A program made the translations under genes and the position numbers. Positions 992 through 39,452 of a stretch of DNA of 64,000 bases are shown piece after piece (position 1 is the first letter of the stretch; each line of letters starts with the position of its first letter). Source of the DNA: Phycisphaerae bacterium. Its GTDB lineage: Bacteria > Planctomycetota > Phycisphaerae > UBA1845. The stretch lies in contig JANQQK010000008.1 in assembly GCA_028289375.1 (NCBI GenBank), positions 62,001 through 126,000 on the forward strand. Reading direction: 5' to 3'. The notes beneath the pieces were generated by a model. The model was given only the letters and a program-made list of their open reading frames with translations. It made no database searches and was not told the DNA's origin.

Positions 992-3961
992 CTACCATAT
1001 CGAAAAGAAACGACCTGCCCTGCCTGACGTAGAGCTCGCACCAAATCGTCGATCAAAGCCAAATGACAGCGCAGAAGCTATCTCATCCGGATTCTCAACG
1101 CCAGCCGCCAGCAATTGGCTCCGGAGCAAAGGCATCTGCGATTCCTCGATACCTCCTTCGTTCAACAGTCTTCCCAACCATTCTCCGAACTGCCGTTCAT
1201 CCGGCAACGCCCGATAAAGCGCGAGTAGCCCGCTACTTAATAAGAATAGCAAGATCCTATTTCGCCAACAAAGGATGTCATAGTCATCGCAACCGATTCC
1301 CACCTCAGCAGTCGTGGCGATACGAAAATCTCTCTCTCCAGTTTGCCTATAACCCCTCTGATCCTGAATCCTCTTCACTAGTTTCTCATCTAAGCATATC
1401 CAGCCACGAATCGCCTCTGTAGTCCAATCAACGTCGAGTCGATGACTTCTCTCGTCCTTAATCACACGCACACTCTGAATCTCTCGCCTTTCGAGGCCAC
1501 GCCAGCTTCGACCAACGAGCCGAGGCATCGGCAAGGGTGGATCCACCACGACTCCCAATGACTGAACCAACCTACCCGCTGGCATATCGATCCCAAGCGC
1601 ACCCGAGATATTCTCGATGCTGTCAATCACTCTTCCGTCTACGGTCCAAACGTGTGCTCTATCCTGCAACTGCATTACAGACTCGCACCTGCTGTTGACA
1701 CCATCCTCGATTACGCACAATCCAAGACTACTGACCGCCCGTTTGAACTCTGTGTGATGCGACAGCTTGCCTTTTTCGAGTCCAGAATGTATGAGAAACT
1801 CACCCTCCCATGCTGCCTCAGAAAGACCGACGCCGTTCGCGCGCATTCTGTTCATTTCGTTTTCTGCGTGACCGAGTATACCGACGTAGATCGTGTGCAT
1901 GCCCCTTGCCAACTCCGGAGACTGCTCTACATCCGACCGAGCGACATTTGTTCGCGGCGTGTCGCTACCCATAAAATTCGCAAGAACCCACGGCACGCCC
2001 CGCCGACCATCATATCCGGCGGCACCAGAACGCACACGAATTCCCTCGACGCATACTCCGGGCTCGAGATCCAACTCAGACTTCACTTGATCATGATACA
2101 CTGATCGCGTCTCAAAGTCCCAAACATCGGCAAATGACGAGCGCCTTACAATATACGATAAATCGACTCCATCTGTGCGAAATGTTTTTTCACACCACTC
2201 TTTAGGAAGCTTTCCTTCACTTGATTTCGTAAAATAATAGGACAGCGCCTCCCCAGTACTCGCGAACCCAATCGGAACCGCCTCGTCGTCATCTGTCTTA
2301 CAAGTCACACTACACCCGGGGATCACAACATAGTGTCGTACAAGATCCTCAACATTGCCAATTTCCGCGGAGCGGCGCACCTGAAGCCTCACTTCAGTGC
2401 CGTGTGCACCGATTTCATTTAGTTCAGGAGATCCCTTATCGATCTTCTTCACAAGATAGTCATTTACAACAGAAGGAAGTGTGAGCCGCCTCGCATACTT
2501 ATCGTCAGGGTGATTCGTCACGATTTCCACGCCGTCGGCAATCATAAAATATGATAAAATTCCAATACCAAAACGGCTAATTGGCGAAAACCCAGAATGC
2601 TTCTTTCGAACTAAGTCGCTTTGATAGTAACTCGCACCAACATTCAGTAGAAATTTTTCAATCATCTCCTGAGTCATGCCAGTTCCGCTGTCACGCACGA
2701 CCAATCTCCTTTGAGACGAGTCCCATACTACGGCGACACTACCCATTGGCTCAGATTCATGTAGGAATGATTGAAAGCGAACCGCATCAATAGCATTCTG
2801 AAGAACCTCTCTTACGGCGACACGCGAATCATTATATAGGGTATGCCCAGTTAATAACTTCAGTATTCTGCCTTGATCTAATTCAAACCGATAGGTCCTA
2901 CCCTCAAATCCACGAGGCTCAACTTGAGAATGATCAATCTCGTTCCACGGGAAGTGGAAAGAGGAACCTTGACGCATAGCCAATTCTGACCATTCGTAGC
3001 ACCTCTTGATTTCCTTACTTGCGTACTGCTGAAGGTATGCTATTAAGCCGAAGTATGCCGTCTCCTCTTCAAAAGATGCGTGCACTTCTATTTTTCCTGT
3101 TTCGCCATTCGTGGCCACCAGCACGGGCTTTACTGCCCGCACTCCGCTTTGTTTCGCCCACTCTTCCTGGCTCTTGGGGTTACTCGGGTCAATCAGCTTG
3201 TACAACACGGAAGGCACACGGCCGCGCTGGATTTGCAAGACATCCGCAGTTCGAAGAATGATCGCGGCATAATGAAGATTCGCCTGTCCGGCATCGTCAT
3301 CGCCGTATACGCGATTGATTCGATATTTCCCTAAGTCAAACAAATCATCTTCGTGGTGACTTAAGCATATCTTTGCAAGATCGTCTCGCACTACATCGTT
3401 CATCCCCGCGAGAAGCCCATTGATCGCATCGACGGCGGCACTGGCATCTCCGTATCGTGTGCTTTCAATTCCTGTGATCCAGTCGTGAATCCTTCTTGCA
3501 TGATTATCGCGAACAAACTCTTGATATAAGAATTCTTCCCGATCAATTTGATTTAGATTACGAAGGGCGTCATCGTAATCCACACCCTTGGTGTCCGCAA
3601 AGACCGTTTTCTTAAATTCGGCGAATTCAATGCAATTCTCTCTGCTGTCGAATTCGTCCTTGGTGACGAGCATACCAAGGTCATGAAAGTAGCATGAGAG
3701 CACAATCATGAGCCAATCGCCCGTTCTCATCAACTTCTTTGTTGGATCTGGGATGAGCTTGTCAACGAGACTGAGCACTAGATTAATGTGGTTTATGTCA
3801 TGCAGTGTGTACTCTCGAAAAATGCCATCGCGCCCGATAAGCTTTAAGACCTCTTCGATGTTCTGCCGAATATTGGTGAGGTTGATGGCACCGAAGAGTT
3901 GAGGGTAGTTCTCAGCTTCCTTTGCACGATGCTCAGCATCCGATTTGAATGGCGATGACAT
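992..3961 (-). CDS. HD hydrolase fused to Hsp90-like (GHKL) ATPase
   Basis: A 989-residue protein. Residues about 50-260 form an HD phosphohydrolase-like domain: HDINH at 54-58, HD at 93-94, HHED at 202-205 and a late Asp in LRTAD at 236-240, so the metal ligands look intact. Residues about 360-620 form a Bergerat-fold ATPase: N-box E385..N389, ATP-lid motif DSGTGM at 424-429 and FGIGILS at 464-470. The last 370 residues are unassigned. The start at 3961 has AGGGGAG five bases upstream; a longer frame to 4078 has no such site. The gene stands alone, is visibly richer in A and T than its neighbours and has its own promoter, all consistent with horizontal acquisition. HD plus Hsp90-like ATPase fusions occur among predicted prokaryotic conflict proteins; a defence role here is inference. 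Confidence 0.85.
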   Translation of the reverse strand: MSSPFKSDAEHRAKEAENYPQLFGAINLTNIRQNIEEVLKLIGRDGIFREYTLHDINHINLVLSLVDKLIPDPTKKLMRTGDWLMIVLSCYFHDLGMLVTKDEFDSRENCIEFAEFKKTVFADTKGVDYDDALRNLNQIDREEFLYQEFVRDNHARRIHDWITGIESTRYGDASAAVDAINGLLAGMNDVVRDDLAKICLSHHEDDLFDLGKYRINRVYGDDDAGQANLHYAAIILRTADVLQIQRGRVPSVLYKLIDPSNPKSQEEWAKQSGVRAVKPVLVATNGETGKIEVHASFEEETAYFGLIAYLQQYASKEIKRCYEWSELAMRQGSSFHFPWNEIDHSQVEPRGFEGRTYRFELDQGRILKLLTGHTLYNDSRVAVREVLQNAIDAVRFQSFLHESEPMGSVAVVWDSSQRRLVVRDSGTGMTQEMIEKFLLNVGASYYQSDLVRKKHSGFSPISRFGIGILSYFMIADGVEIVTNHPDDKYARRLTLPSVVNDYLVKKIDKGSPELNEIGAHGTEVRLQVRRSAEIGNVEDLVRHYVVIPGCSVTCKTDDDEAVPIGFASTGEALSYYFTKSSEGKLPKEWCEKTFRTDGVDLSYIVRRSSFADVWDFETRSVYHDQVKSELDLEPGVCVEGIRVRSGAAGYDGRRGVPWVLANFMGSDTPRTNVARSDVEQSPELARGMHTIYVGILGHAENEMNRMRANGVGLSEAAWEGEFLIHSGLEKGKLSHHTEFKRAVSSLGLCVIEDGVNSRCESVMQLQDRAHVWTVDGRVIDSIENISGALGIDMPAGRLVQSLGVVVDPPLPMPRLVGRSWRGLERREIQSVRVIKDERSHRLDVDWTTEAIRGWICLDEKLVKRIQDQRGYRQTGERDFRIATTAEVGIGCDDYDILCWRNRILLFLLSSGLLALYRALPDERQFGEWLGRLLNEGGIEESQMPLLRSQLLAAGVENPDEIASALSFGFDRRFGASSTSGRAGRFFSIW

Positions 3962-32988: not shown

Positions 32989-33086
32989 CTCTTGATCCCT
33001 TGATCCCCCTTCCCTCGATCCCTCCCTTTGTCCCTTCGCCTCCCGGCGCGCGGGGATCCCTCTGTCCCTCGCGGGCAACGCCCGCG
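32984..33086. repeat. Dispersed GATCCC/palindrome repeat, copy A
   Basis: It contains tandem CTTGATCCC-type units (from 32990), a near-palindrome CCCGGCGCGCGGGG (33042-33055) and a hairpin CGCGGGC-AAC-GCCCGCG (33070-33086). It ends at the base before the stop codon of the GspK-like gene. It shares about 25 bases around the CTCTTGATCCC unit with copy D, and its overall order with the reverse complements of copies C and E. Confidence 0.7.
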
Positions 33087-36000
33087 CTACTCATCCCCAA
33101 CCTGAGCATAGGACCCGACGACGCGTCGGCCGATGAACTTCGGCAGCTTCCGCGGGTTGAGCACACTTGGCAGCCGATCGACCGTCTCCTGGAACCGGAT
33201 GGCCCGTTGATCGACGGCTTCCTTCTGCCCTGCACCACGCAGGGTTCCATAGACCGTGAAGACGTCCGACCGCGTCGTGACCCAATCGCCGAGCGCGACG
33301 AGGACGGCCACAGCCTGGACATAGTCTGGTCCGTTGTAGCCGGTGAAATTCGCAGATCCATCGATAACGCCGGAATCGATGCTCCAGAAGTCACCTGTTC
33401 CAGAGTTTCCGGTTGCCATCGGATCATCATTCACACGCACATTGGCCAATTCACCCACAGTCAAGAACCCCGTAGGAAGATTCGTGGCATCGTACCGAAG
33501 CCGCTGCTCTGTTTCGAAATCCGGAGAGGCATCGCCAGACGGATCCACGATCTGACGCGACTCGCGATAGGCCACGATTGATCGGGCAATAAATGGCCCA
33601 AGGCTTCCCGAAACATCCGGCTGTGGTGGGCTGCCTCCATAAATCGATTGGGAAATCTTCGGTCGAAACGCCAACGGAATATCAATCATGGGGACATAGG
33701 GCAACCCGGAAAGCACCGTCCAGGGAGCCGAATTGATGTCAACACGGCCATGGACGCGCAGGCCGTTCATGTCGATTTTGGGCGTCATGTCGACCTCGAC
33801 CTCGTCGGCTCGAGAATGCTGAAGTGGCAATGCCGTGAAATAGTCGAAGACAAGCTGGCCCCACGGGATACTGAGCGTTGTCGGATTATCCGGGATCGCA
33901 GCGAGCTTCGTTTGATCGAATACAGGCATGCGACCGTTGTCAATCACATTGAAACCACTCAGCAGGTTACTGTTGAATGGTGTACCCGTGTCATTGGCGA
34001 ACTGGCTCAACAGCAACAGCATGCCCGTTGTCGGGAATGCAGTTGTCAGATCACCGGTATTGGCGAACTGGATTTCAACCGGAAGGAGATCTGCAATGAA
34101 TGCGTTTGTATTTGCAGCCCCAAGCGTCCCCGGACCACTGAACTCGCGAGCACGCGGAACGACGCAAGTCCACACATTGTCGTCTGGAGACGTCACCGGA
34201 CCCGTCATCCGCTGAAGCGAATTCTCTTCGCCATCATTCGTACTCCCAAAGTTCGGACTAGAGGTTTCCGCATGACTCACAGCGAACACATCGCAAACAA
34301 CATCAGTACTACCCGCGATGTCGACGTTCGGCACATTACGGATCAACTGAACTACTGAATTTTCACTCAACGCCCACTCATCACCTTCTGGCGCCGAAGC
34401 ACTATCAATCTCGCTGAATGTTCGACCAGCAATACTGCCACTCAGGTTCAGATCGATCACACCATAGCCGGTGTTGTCTGCCCGAAGATCAATGAGTTTG
34501 AAATCCGAAAGGTCAATTGATTCTTCGTAGGGATTGAACAACTCAATGCTACAGATCGGCGGATCGGCATGTTGATAATACAACTCCGTAATGAACGGCT
34601 GACGTTCCAAGCCGTAAACAACGGGCCCTCCGCCAATACCGCTCAACGGGTTTCTCAATTCGACACGCGTCGGCACATCATCGCTATCTGCAAAGTCAAT
34701 CAAATTCGCTGTTAACGTGGCAGCGATTCGACCCTTCTCGGATCCGAGGACGGCGCCATTGTTATCTACCGAATGCAGCATCATCAGGAAACCATCCTGA
34801 ATCGTGCGGATAAAGCGGTCACGAATCTCCTGCGGCAAGCCGGTATCCGACAATACCCCAAGTGGATCGTCATCGTACTCACCCGAATTATCATCCGTAA
34901 AAAACGTTGAGCCAGCAGACTTCAAAACCACATTCTGAAGATAAGGCAGGCTGACCTTCAATCGACCATTCAACGGCGGAAGCGGCGCAGCCTGGTTAGC
35001 GCGGTTTTCCGGGTAATCATCGATCGAGAATTCGACAGCATGACCATTGGCGATCAACTGCTGCAGCCGATCCTGCTGAGCCATCGGATCTGTCGGCATC
35101 CGCATCAACTGATCGTCGTAGCTGACGGTCGTCAGCACATGTCGAAAGTCATACTCGAGATCGGCTGGCGTGCCCGCGCCGTAATTCGACGCATCGAACT
35201 TCTTGAGCCAATCGTCGCGGACTTCGCCAGACGGACTATCCGCGTCGGCGGTGTTGTACAGCCACCAGCGCGGATTGGAACCATCCATGCCGCCAGTGAG
35301 GAAGGTGTCGCTGACGCCGCCGTCGAGAAACCTTGCATAAAGCGCTTCGGCGATATCGCCTACGTCGAGCGTGTCGATGGGACGACTCTGCAGGCTGCTC
35401 AACGGCAGTTCACGCGGCGGCAGCATGAAACGATTGCGCAGAACAGGCTCCTCACTCTCCGGGGCGTAAGGGTCGCTGGAGAGGGAAATGTTGTCCGGCA
35501 CCACCATTTCACTGAACACGGCTCCCAAGAGCGTATTGTGCGCGTAATTGAGATTCACCATCGCGCCGTGCGGGACCACGCGGATGCTGTAATAGAGATC
35601 GTCGTCCGATTGACCGGGGCCGGCTACGAAATCAGGGTCACGAAGCCTCTCGGCCAAGTCGCCACGAACGCTCTTGGGATAGCGCGTTTCACTCAGTTTG
35701 TAGGTATATGAGTCCCAAACCCCGTCGCCATCGGCGTCACGTCTGAATATCGCTGCCGACGAGTCACCTTCCGACATCTCATCTGGATTGACCGTGGCCA
35801 ATGGCACGTCAATTTCAAACGACGTATCGATTGCGGAATCACCAAGCGTCGCCTTCAGATCGCTCGTCGCGAAGAACTGCGCGTTCTCCGTACCCATGTC
35901 GAATCCATCCGGATCATACGGTTCAAAGCTGGCGATCAGCGGATGCACGCCGGGGATTTCGCCGTAGCTGTCGATGCCGATGGCCGACGCGGTGTCCTGG

Positions 36001-36347
36001 TTGAACGGCAAGCCGTCGCTGCCGAGCATGCTGTCTTTCAAGGCCTGACGAATCTCGCGGGAAATCGTGTCGACCACGCGGTCCTGGGTTTTCTGACGCT
36101 TGGCACCCTCGATGGCCGAACCCTCGAACGACACCGTCGCCAGAAAGGCCGTCCCGACCACGAACAGCATCGACAGCATGGCCACCACCATGACCATGAC
36201 GGTCGCAGCCCGCTTGCCGCCGCAGGTTCCACCGAGACGGGCCCGAATTCCTTCGTCCCTCGGTCCCTGAGTCCCTGAGTCCCTGCCATTCTGCCGCGCT
36301 CGCGTGGCAGAATCTGTTGGGTTTGAATTGTTCAAGTCTCGTTTCAT
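33087..36347 (-). CDS. Giant GspK-like pseudopilin with lamin-tail-like insert
   Basis: A 1086-residue protein at the end of the pseudopilin operon. After a 45-residue charged leader come one hydrophobic helix (about 48-70, no Glu at position +5) and a helical SAM-like part. Near residue 870, VDINSAPWTVLSGLP is the helix-hairpin-helix signature of GspK, the pseudopilin that tips the type II secretion fibre. Around residue 600, IELFNPYEESIDLSDFKL resembles a lamin-tail domain. Typical GspK proteins have about 300 residues, so two thirds is inserted material, probably exposed domains. Repeat copy B encodes part of the leader and copy A abuts the stop. The call as GspK rests on the hairpin motif, lack of Glu+5 and gene order. 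Confidence 0.78.
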   Translation of the reverse strand: MKRDLNNSNPTDSATRARQNGRDSGTQGPRDEGIRARLGGTCGGKRAATVMVMVVAMLSMLFVVGTAFLATVSFEGSAIEGAKRQKTQDRVVDTISREIRQALKDSMLGSDGLPFNQDTASAIGIDSYGEIPGVHPLIASFEPYDPDGFDMGTENAQFFATSDLKATLGDSAIDTSFEIDVPLATVNPDEMSEGDSSAAIFRRDADGDGVWDSYTYKLSETRYPKSVRGDLAERLRDPDFVAGPGQSDDDLYYSIRVVPHGAMVNLNYAHNTLLGAVFSEMVVPDNISLSSDPYAPESEEPVLRNRFMLPPRELPLSSLQSRPIDTLDVGDIAEALYARFLDGGVSDTFLTGGMDGSNPRWWLYNTADADSPSGEVRDDWLKKFDASNYGAGTPADLEYDFRHVLTTVSYDDQLMRMPTDPMAQQDRLQQLIANGHAVEFSIDDYPENRANQAAPLPPLNGRLKVSLPYLQNVVLKSAGSTFFTDDNSGEYDDDPLGVLSDTGLPQEIRDRFIRTIQDGFLMMLHSVDNNGAVLGSEKGRIAATLTANLIDFADSDDVPTRVELRNPLSGIGGGPVVYGLERQPFITELYYQHADPPICSIELFNPYEESIDLSDFKLIDLRADNTGYGVIDLNLSGSIAGRTFSEIDSASAPEGDEWALSENSVVQLIRNVPNVDIAGSTDVVCDVFAVSHAETSSPNFGSTNDGEENSLQRMTGPVTSPDDNVWTCVVPRAREFSGPGTLGAANTNAFIADLLPVEIQFANTGDLTTAFPTTGMLLLLSQFANDTGTPFNSNLLSGFNVIDNGRMPVFDQTKLAAIPDNPTTLSIPWGQLVFDYFTALPLQHSRADEVEVDMTPKIDMNGLRVHGRVDINSAPWTVLSGLPYVPMIDIPLAFRPKISQSIYGGSPPQPDVSGSLGPFIARSIVAYRESRQIVDPSGDASPDFETEQRLRYDATNLPTGFLTVGELANVRVNDDPMATGNSGTGDFWSIDSGVIDGSANFTGYNGPDYVQAVAVLVALGDWVTTRSDVFTVYGTLRGAGQKEAVDQRAIRFQETVDRLPSVLNPRKLPKFIGRRVVGSYAQVGDE
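36251..36313. repeat. Dispersed repeat, divergent copy B, inside a leader
   Basis: Four units of the type GTCCCTGA/CGTCCCTCG run from 36255 to 36285, followed by an ATTCTGCC/GGCAGAAT hairpin (36288-36313). It encodes leader residues about 12-32 of the GspK-like protein. It follows the unit-plus-hairpin layout of copies C and E but lacks the central 14-base palindrome. Confidence 0.5.
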
Positions 36348-36590: not shown

Positions 36591-37973
36591 TCAGGGGTCG
36601 CCAACCGGCAGAATCATTACATGCCGCACAGGCCGCTCAAACCGATCGTTGTCGTCGAAGAGGTCGACCGTGATGCGGAGGGCACGGGGGAAAATCGGGG
36701 TCGAATTGTCGAACTGGTGCAAATTCGCATTTGCTGCAGTGGGGTCGAACGCGCCGCCAGCCTCGAAAAGATCAAGCGGAACCTCTCCCGGCATCAATTC
36801 GAATGGCTCGCCGCTCAACTGCATGACCACTGAACCTGCGATGTCGCCCGGGTCTACCCAAACTACTTGGGCATTTCCGGCGATCGCAGGATCTTCCAAA
36901 GCCCACTCGACCTTGAAACTCGCGCAGTTGTTGAGAAAGAAATGACCAAGTCGATCTGCGTATCGACCGGGCGGGTCCAAATCGAGACGACTTCGGGCCA
37001 TCCATGCTTGAATCGCGATAAGCGAGATGTTGGCAGGTTCCTCAACAATATTCACGTTGAAATCAAATCCCGGGTCAACACTGGAAATGAAGTCAATCTC
37101 GCCATTGATCAGATCGTCGGCTTCGTCATCGTCAAGCGAGATGGGCGGCGCGAGCCAGTCCGGAATCGGGTTCGCGTTGCCTTCGATTACGGCTTGCAAC
37201 GCTGCGACCGGCGACTCGACGAGCGCGATGCTTCGCCGGGCGAGGTGCCAGTCTTGGGCCGGAACGGGAAAGTAGTCTGTGGGGTTGGTGACGAAGTCGG
37301 GATAAGCGTTGGCGACCGTTAGCGCTCCGTTGGGGTCAGTCGGGTCAATCTCGCCGAGTTCGGCGTGGCCGTAGACGACCTGGGCCTGGTCGGCGAAGAC
37401 CTGGGGGTAGTTGCTGCTGCGGGTGCGGCGGGCGGTGAAAAACATAAGGATGTCGGCGCGGGGGTCTTCGAGGCGGAACGGTGGTGGGCTTCCCGCGATG
37501 CCAGCGATGGCGCCCGTCGTCATGTCGTTGTCTTCCCGTTCGGGGTCGGGGTTGTGGATGTACCCTTGTGTGGGATTGCCGCTTGCGGGGTCGATTTCCT
37601 GTTGGGCGCGGGTCCAGTAGGCGTTGATGGGCTGTGACCAGATGACGAGCATGGATCGTTCTGGGTCGACGCCGGCGAGGTCCTCGCGGAGGGTTTCCTC
37701 GAGCATGCGGACGGACTGGTTGATGTCGATGATGGCGGTGGCTTCGCCGGTGGAGTCGATGGAGATGGAGAAGATCTGTCCGGTGAGTGCGATCATGACG
37801 GCGAGGATGCCGATGGCGACGACGAGTTCGACGAGGGAGAAGGCACGCGACGCTGCACGTCGCGAGGGATCGAGGGATCGAGGTCCCGGCGCGCCGGGAG
37901 AAGGATCGAGACCGCACGATGTCGGGGGGTCATGACGCAATGGCAGATTCTTGTTCTGTTTGATTCGTTTCAT
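36591..37973 (-). CDS. GspJ-like pseudopilin
   Basis: About 460 residues from the ATG at 37973; an ATG at 38012 would add 13. A long Arg/Pro-rich leader ends at the prepilin peptidase site A/FSLVE, with Phe at +1 and Glu at +5, followed by the hydrophobic helix ELVVAIGILAVMIALTGQIFS. The next segment (INQSVRMLEETLREDLAGV) is typical of GspJ, which also has a large C-terminal beta domain. The leader contains the translated repeat copy C (DPSPGAPGPRSLDPS). The order before GspK and after a GspI-like gene supports the GspJ call. It is 243 bases from the GspK-like gene. Confidence 0.8.
   Translation of the reverse strand: MKRIKQNKNLPLRHDPPTSCGLDPSPGAPGPRSLDPSRRAASRAFSLVELVVAIGILAVMIALTGQIFSISIDSTGEATAIIDINQSVRMLEETLREDLAGVDPERSMLVIWSQPINAYWTRAQQEIDPASGNPTQGYIHNPDPEREDNDMTTGAIAGIAGSPPPFRLEDPRADILMFFTARRTRSSNYPQVFADQAQVVYGHAELGEIDPTDPNGALTVANAYPDFVTNPTDYFPVPAQDWHLARRSIALVESPVAALQAVIEGNANPIPDWLAPPISLDDDEADDLINGEIDFISSVDPGFDFNVNIVEEPANISLIAIQAWMARSRLDLDPPGRYADRLGHFFLNNCASFKVEWALEDPAIAGNAQVVWVDPGDIAGSVVMQLSGEPFELMPGEVPLDLFEAGGAFDPTAANANLHQFDNSTPIFPRALRITVDLFDDNDRFERPVRHVMILPVGDP
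37846..37910. repeat. Dispersed repeat, copy C, in frame inside a pseudopilin leader
   Basis: The order is hairpin CGCGACG-CTGCA-CGTCGCG (37846-37864), two GGGATCGA units, perfect palindrome CCCGGCGCGCCGGG (37885-37898), then GGATCGAG. Copy E has the same order and nearly the same sequence. It encodes part of the leader before the prepilin cleavage site. Confidence 0.8.
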
Positions 37974-38039
37974 GCGTCTCTGCTTCGGGCGTGCACCGCC
38001 GATTGGAATCATGGACGGCGACGCACCATCGGCTGGGCC

Positions 38040-38072
38040 ACTCTTGATCCCTTGATCCCTTCATCCCTTCCC
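38040..38072. repeat. Dispersed repeat, partial copy D
   Basis: Three TTGATCCC/TTCATCCC units end at the base before the stop codon of the GspI-like gene (38073-38075). The left part matches copy A closely, including the preceding GGGCC.CTC. Confidence 0.65.
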
Positions 38073-39452
38073 CTACGGTGTAAAGACCATCTGGCGGACT
38101 TCGATGCCGACGACGGGTTGTTGGCCGTCGAAGAACGGGAACTCGTCGTCTTCGGTGGCGCCGCGATCGACCGGCGGCGGGAAGACCCAGAATTCCCGTT
38201 GGTCGCTTGCTGGCGAACCTGGGGCGCCGAGTATCAACATGTTGCCGTTCCAAAACTCTGACGCGAGGACTTCGCGATCCAGCGTGATTCGTGCTTGTTG
38301 ATCATAGTTGTTCCCGTCCCCTATGAACTCGGTCCTCTTGGCTGTGAAAATACTGCCTGTAATACGCTCAACGAGGACCGAGCCAGGCTGAATCATCCTT
38401 GCAATCAATTCACCGCCTGTAAGCAACTCGGGATTCGCGATCGCATCTGAAGGCACACCCCGTGGGTCCGCATTTGGCACACCGGTCACAGGATCCCAGT
38501 TCCCCAACACCTGTAGACTTACGAGCCACGGGACCGGAAGTTGCATGTCCTCGCTCGCTGCCAGTGCTCTTGGCGCCGCGGTCATCGTGTTCGGTGTTGG
38601 GGGCAAGTCCTGATCATCCTGTCTTGCAAAGCGCTGCCCGCTCCCAGACAACCTGAGCGTGAAAACATAGAACGTCATAACACGCGGAGCCGTTGGGCTT
38701 GTCACCTCAGCGAAATTCTGCAGTCGGTGAAGTGCCGACCACGCAAAACGGCGCGACGCCAGTCGGGCGTCCCACTGATTGTCCGGTGGACCATTGACAT
38801 CGGGGCGTGCGGGCAGCGGCGGCAGGAATCGCTCATGAAATGCGACTTGAGGTGGCGGCGGATTCAACGGCATCGTGGAGTTTGTTAACCACTGATTCAA
38901 AATGGGATTCACAATCCGCACTTGATCTGCCTGCGCGGCAGTACTCATCGGATCGAAGTCCTTCAGATGCAACTCACCCCACGTATCAAAATTGTCACCC
39001 CCTGTGACGACGCCGCGGTCCGCATACGCATTTTCCATGTGGAGCGGTTGGACGAACCGACTGGATGTAATCGCGGTGACGCCCATCGGAGCGTAGTCAC
39101 CAAGAAAGCTCGTCATTCCGGCTGGTGTCGCGTCGGTCGGCGATTGCACCTTCGTGAGCAATCGTAATGTCGTTTCGGCGGAGTTGGCGGCGGTGGATTG
39201 GCTGGTGAATTCGGCGAGTTCGCGGGCGCGGGTCCAGGCGACGGGGAACATGACGGCGGCCATCAGCAGTCCGATGCCGAGGATGACGATGGCGATCATG
39301 AGTTCGGCCATGGAGAAAGCGCGGCGCGACGCTTTGCGTCGCGGGGGATTACGGGATCGAGGTCCCGGCGCGCCGGGAGAGGGATCGAGAGGGGCCGACG
39401 GTCGTCGGGTTTGGGGGACGAAAACAGCCTGTTGATCGGTTGGATTGATCAT
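38073..39452 (-). CDS. GspI-like pseudopilin
   Basis: This encodes 459 residues. A leader of about 47 residues, mostly encoded by repeat copy E, ends at the cleavage site A/FSMAE. A hydrophobic helix MAELMIAIVILGIGLLMAAV follows, then WTRARELAEFTSQSTAANSAETTL, the helical stalk expected for a minor pseudopilin. The C-terminal 380 residues are much longer than usual and have no recognised domain. Its start codon overlaps the stop of the preceding pseudopilin gene by four bases, so translation is coupled. GspI is the best fit from operon order. Confidence 0.75.
   Translation of the reverse strand: MINPTDQQAVFVPQTRRPSAPLDPSPGAPGPRSRNPPRRKASRRAFSMAELMIAIVILGIGLLMAAVMFPVAWTRARELAEFTSQSTAANSAETTLRLLTKVQSPTDATPAGMTSFLGDYAPMGVTAITSSRFVQPLHMENAYADRGVVTGGDNFDTWGELHLKDFDPMSTAAQADQVRIVNPILNQWLTNSTMPLNPPPPQVAFHERFLPPLPARPDVNGPPDNQWDARLASRRFAWSALHRLQNFAEVTSPTAPRVMTFYVFTLRLSGSGQRFARQDDQDLPPTPNTMTAAPRALAASEDMQLPVPWLVSLQVLGNWDPVTGVPNADPRGVPSDAIANPELLTGGELIARMIQPGSVLVERITGSIFTAKRTEFIGDGNNYDQQARITLDREVLASEFWNGNMLILGAPGSPASDQREFWVFPPPVDRGATEDDEFPFFDGQQPVVGIEVRQMVFTP
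39325..39389. repeat. Dispersed repeat, copy E, in frame inside a pseudopilin leader
   Basis: The hairpin CGCGACGC-TTT-GCGTCGCG (39325-39343) is followed by GGGATTACGGGATCGAGG, the perfect palindrome CCCGGCGCGCCGGG (39364-39377) and AGAGGGATCGAG. The order matches copy C base for base in most positions. Confidence 0.8.

Follow-up and report, generated by a model that had tools for sequence, protein, structure and literature searches.

A 16-bp palindrome in two pseudopilin leaders of a Phycisphaerae bacterium, a probable exchangeable tip of palindromic repeats

Two adjacent pseudopilin genes of a Phycisphaerae bacterium carry the same palindromic insert in frame within their leaders, which raises the question of what this insert is and how it came to lie there twice. 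The window analysed here is a 64,000-nucleotide stretch of contig JANQQK010000008.1 and belongs to a 5.0-Mb genome of 94 contigs. Both genes are reverse-strand open reading frames with an N_methyl domain (PF07963): one of 473 aa (36591–38012; domain at residues 54–76; leader of 44 or 57 aa), with relatives in 51 of 60 genomes, and one of 459 aa (38073–39452; residues 42–66; leader of 45 aa), which begins within the stop codon of the gene ahead of it (ATGA). Their prepilin cleavage sites are A/FSLVEL and A/FSMAEL.

A repeat search returned the insert as one ungapped 66-nt pair, 37846–37911 in the 473-aa gene and 39325–39390 in the 459-aa gene, both on the reverse strand and 88% identical. Outside it, ungapped identity falls to 35% and 38% over 60 nt per side. 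Both copies are composites with the same order of parts: a hairpin CGCGACG-N5-CGTCGCG, octamer units, the 14-mer CCCGGCGCGCCGGG and then GGATCGAGA. The first comprises hairpin CGCGACG-CTGCA-CGTCGCG (37846–37864), the units AGGGATCG AGGGATCG AGG (37865–37883) and a palindrome TCCCGGCGCGCCGGGA (37884–37899); the second has hairpin CGCGACG-CTTTG-CGTCGCG (39325–39343) and the same palindrome, also exact, at 39363–39378. Each encodes LDPSPGAPGPRS right ahead of A/FS. The places, the element order and the shared peptide given in a preliminary description of this DNA are therefore borne out. No in-frame ATG, GTG or TTG lies between insert and cleavage site in either leader, and if the protein possesses any leader, the insert must hence be translated.

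Octamer repeats recur around these genes. One tract (GGGATGAAGGGATCAAGGGATCAAG), free of the palindrome, lies between the two pseudopilin genes (38043–38069, reverse strand), and another (AGGGACTCAGGGACTCAGGGACCGAGGGACGAAGG; 36249–36285, reverse strand) is coding, in the N-terminal segment ahead of the membrane helix of a third gene of the operon (33087–36347, reverse strand); the counterpart of this segment in a same-genus relative is different and has no octamer tract. The third copy of the palindrome in the window is decayed (TCCCGGCGCGCGGGGA, one mismatch; 33041–33056) and sits inside a further octamer tract (about 32990–33075).

In most orthologues the distance from ATG to cleavage site is 19–25 aa, so that the insert roughly doubles leader length here, with no visible harm to either gene. 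Both orthologues in the same-genus genome G001 are insert-free, with leaders of 20–22 aa, roughly what is left here once 22 codons are subtracted; the insertion therefore postdates the split from this relative. The nearest named relative found, the metagenome-assembled Phycisphaerae bacterium OFTM371, has the same locus sequence as G001. Simple duplication of a pseudopilin gene as the origin of the two leaders was rejected on the same ground, both genes being insert-free in the same-genus relative. The CGCGACG hairpin occurs, genome-wide, in these two leaders only; copying from one leader to the other is therefore the probable course, and two separate insertions are less likely. The left flanks of the two leaders align better than shuffled sequence, and a wider, older similarity between them is possible.

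The conserved part of the composite is the 16-bp palindrome, which we refer to here as P16. Its 14-mer core has 35 copies in the genome against none for a reversed control, so that the motif, for which a genome-wide count had been proposed, is dispersed; its absence from the rest of the genome, named beforehand as a refuting result, is thereby contradicted. When the 35 copies are aligned with their flanks, TCCCGGCGCGCCGGGA is exact in 31 and little else is held in common. Only two are clear coding copies; the remainder lie mostly in REP or octamer repeats, and the other open reading frames that overlap copies are at most putative genes. A 0.95-Mb sample, which is enriched for P16 places and whose native-to-replaced ratio is not a genome-wide one, holds 31 exact copies, eight with one mismatch and nine with two, almost all of them in the same settings. 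For 12 random control palindromes matched in composition, there was no exact match, and the copies of any one of them, at one mismatch or at two, never exceeded one. Flanks read by eye show no consistent target-site duplication, though some octamer sites could show 1–2 nt. ARAGORN and Rfam found no tRNA beside the P16 copy at C37:3859.

By their flanking repeat the copies sort into four sets, F1–F4. F1 is a GTAG-headed hairpin, GTCAGGTC...GACCTGAC, and F2 is GGTGGCCCA...TGGGGGAGTCGA; F3 and F4 are octamer tracts (for example, GGCACGAA and GGGATCGA), which are not hairpins and which P16 interrupts. In the REP hairpins the tip is swapped, GTCAGGTCAA-GCGAAGC-GGACCTGAC becoming GTCAGGTCAA-P16-GGACCTGAC, and F1 loses GCGAAGC as it gains P16. 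Within this one genome, in the 0.95-Mb sample, native GTAGGTCAGGTCAA-GCGAAGC-GGACCTGACG coexists with GGTCAA-P16-GGACC, and native GGTGGCCCACCGCTT-CAGCG-GTGGGGGAGTCGA of F2 with CCGCTT-P16-GTGGGGG. A strict F2 pattern has 23 copies genome-wide, 16 native and seven with P16, and none for the control. From F2 either CAGCG or a longer inner stretch is lost, and the several different junctions of this set make more than one acquisition likely. In F1 the heads are GTAG-like and a single junction is common to the copies, two of which adjoin the RAYT-flanking REP type GTAGCGCCACC. The host REPs are headed; P16 itself carries no GTAG/GTGG-type head, and the octamer-tract copies, both leaders included, are also headless. 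No half-P16 ends were found beside F1 arms except in decayed copies. A flank-pairing test of P16 flanks against re-dealt flanks was not positive, a result of little weight, since flanks of one family pair among themselves.

Among 59 relatives, ten have 18–64 copies of the 14-mer core and most have 0–2, the same-genus genome having none; some of these copies, in GC-rich coding DNA, may be chance. Each of 391 genomes sampled from the rest of the phylum has at most one copy of the 16-mer. P16-rich relatives house it in other repeats; in G032, for instance, it lies in a hairpin of the sequence GCCGCAGGCTT, and in G047 in ATCTGCTAAAT...AAAGTC. The compared genomes are mostly draft and all divergent, and for that reason no high-identity pair with one locus filled and empty was seen.

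A sister hairpin, TCCCGANNNNTCGGGA (TCCCGA-N4-TCGGGA), is enriched in the P16-rich genomes (p=1e-5). It is common in G047 (tetraloops CTTG/CAAG) and G032 (TCTA/TAGA), the tetraloops being genome-specific. In a tandem array on viral-collection contig L194 (860–1190), tRNA-Asn fragments lie beside an intact tRNA-Asn. Three fragments have GGCAGAGCAG-CGGACTG-TTAATCC altered, two to P16 and one to TCCCGATCCATCGGGA; the exchanged segment is the 5′ half of the anticodon arm, and the intact neighbouring tRNA keeps CGGACTG. Matches to ATCCCGANNNNTCGGGAT in viral-collection contigs were mostly AT-rich terminator-like hairpins and were set aside as evidence, except for a 9-kb contig (L319) with three TCCCGA-N4-TCGGGA hairpins (2323–3535), of which the one at 2323 sits within an TCATTGCGAGG...GCGGCAATCTC-type repeat.

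P16 is thus dispersed in this genome, patchy among related genomes and decaying in place, and native and tip-replaced versions of one REP exist side by side. It is best read as taking the place of the apex in other palindromic repeats, which include two or more REP families of this genome and others in relatives, and as entering also between octamer units. We consider it reasonably probable that P16 is a propagating hairpin tip, a minimal, non-coding element exchangeable between palindromic repeats. Hairpins would extrude in single-stranded form, on the lagging strand for instance, and open near the tip; the gap would be refilled by copying from another P16-bearing hairpin; and P16-tipped REP copies may afterwards spread in the usual REP manner. 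At the present locus, once the lineage had diverged from the same-genus relative, one leader would have acquired, in frame, an octamer tract with P16 and the local hairpin. The other leader, 1.5 kb away, would then probably have received a copy. On this reading the insert is tolerated because prepilin peptidase removes the leader. A broader version can be put forward only tentatively: a general bacterial process would swap tips, with TCCCG/CGGGA-armed palindromes (P16 and TCCCGA-N4-TCGGGA) copied into REP loops, repeat arrays and tRNA arms, the tip being the unit of inheritance.

Should the tip itself be immobile, P16 would be the inner stem of several ordinary REP subfamilies amplified by RAYTs. 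The heads and single junction of F1, with its two copies beside a RAYT-flanking REP, fit this explanation, and published work on E. coli TnpAREP (PMC8266576) counts in its favour. We nevertheless regard it as unlikely, since the same 16 bp occur in REPs whose stems are unrelated, within tracts of octamers and in a tRNA array, since F2 has junctions of several types, and since the RAYT loci fetched are all P16-free. The linked transposase that the preliminary description had suggested looking for did not appear: the three Y1_Tnp genes of this genome are all bordered by other REPs that lack P16, it is absent from 30 RAYT loci in relatives, RAYT number and P16 number are only weakly related (Spearman 0.31), and no enzyme was found linked to P16. 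Three RAYT-like genes (L060, L061 and L062) each have their own REP type, GTAGCGCCACCC, GGTGGCCCACG and GTAGGGTGGGCA. P16 could instead be a selected binding site, an operator or chromosome-organising site, that is housed in repeats. A perfect 16-bp palindrome is the typical site of a dimeric protein, and exact copies outnumber decayed ones; yet P16 is missing from the same-genus genome and most of the family, lies inside leaders, REPs and tRNA fragments, and alternates with TCCCGATCCATCGGGA in one array, and we hold such a role to be improbable. That an assembly or library artefact was placed in repeats would suit the all-or-little presence per genome and the location of the copies. It is made less likely by decayed copies in the same settings, by in-frame copies in two genes and by the presence of P16 alike in a single-contig genome (G024), fragmented genomes and viral-collection contigs, and its probability is close to negligible.

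It had also been proposed that the leaders were recruited to serve, for instance, in mRNA folding or in timing translation. Relative to shuffled sequence, folding is more favourable for the leader of the 459-aa gene (z-score −2.33) but not for that of the 473-aa gene (+0.77); in relatives the leaders are short or hold other repeats, and the element is dispersed rather than tied to pseudopilin genes, all of which makes recruitment very improbable. Nor did mapping of the copies reveal a preference for prepilin genes: 33 of the 35 lie outside the two leaders, and seven of eight prepilin-type genes have no flagged repeat, these eight having been picked out of the 0.95-Mb sample by a motif that misses the second leader. 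In or shortly ahead of the same pseudopilin leader, relatives carry unrelated hairpin repeats (L068 and L072, in which a shorter start within the repeat or downstream of it is possible), a tandem repeat (L070) or a palindromic CCCCTCTCCCTTGCAGGGAGAGGGG (L083). Such unrelated repeats are what would be expected of a tolerant site. The earlier interpretation stands in part: P16 is a dispersed palindromic element in a leader that export removes, and relatives have other repeats at this place, whereas a linked RAYT, recruitment for RNA folding and a preference for prepilin genes find no support. The hairpin portion of the composite is not dispersed. Because the leader is removed, its length varies in relatives, its folding points to no shared RNA function and most P16 copies are elsewhere, the composite is best seen as a neutral insert, the leaders being a tolerant landing place for repeats.

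If the tip moves apart from the hairpin, it would be a selfish DNA unit below the size of a complete REP or MITE, and unrelated repeats would have a route for the exchange of parts. The leaders illustrate how a discarded peptide can absorb insertions, a cheap entry of repeats into coding DNA.

In a literature search that left most subscription journals outside, no paper describing the 14-mer, the sister hairpins or loop replacement was found, and none reporting so small a palindrome shared at the apex by REP families that are otherwise unrelated. In form, the octamer tracts (GGGATCGA, GGGACTGA and their variants) are like the short tandemly repeated repeats of cyanobacteria, the unit length of which is 7; the present unit is 8 and the phylum another. 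P16 differs from MITEs in having, on flanks read by eye, no terminal inverted repeats with a fixed-length target-site duplication. With REPs it shares its shortness, palindromic form and many dispersed copies, and its hosts resemble REP/RAYT (TnpAREP) systems in being short hairpins headed by GTAG- or GGTGG-type motifs, of which one kind adjoins a RAYT-flanking REP; unlike REPs, P16 is common to unrelated families, occurs outside them, is headless and lies at no examined RAYT locus. REPs inside coding regions, and alternative or variable REP loops, have been described (PMC3733652). Rickettsia palindromic elements are likewise inserted in frame in protein genes (PMC10969869), as is the P16 composite, but they are about 150 bp and mostly coding, whereas P16 lies mostly in REP or octamer repeats, and the likeness is by description. 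The GC clusters of yeast mitochondria are short, GC-rich palindromes, mobile without coding capacity, which are reported to merge and shuffle (PMC4478555). P16 is similarly short, GC-rich, mobile on our reading and non-coding. Its patchiness between genomes and the tip-exchanged REPs inside one genome, seen with no same-locus strain pair, may or may not correspond to the presence/absence polymorphism and shuffling of such clusters; GC42, however, is 42 nt long with an AG target-site duplication, whereas P16 is 16 bp, bacterial, replaces hairpin tips and leaves no consistent duplication. REPs in coding DNA, in-frame palindromic insertions and shuffling palindromes are each already known in other systems.
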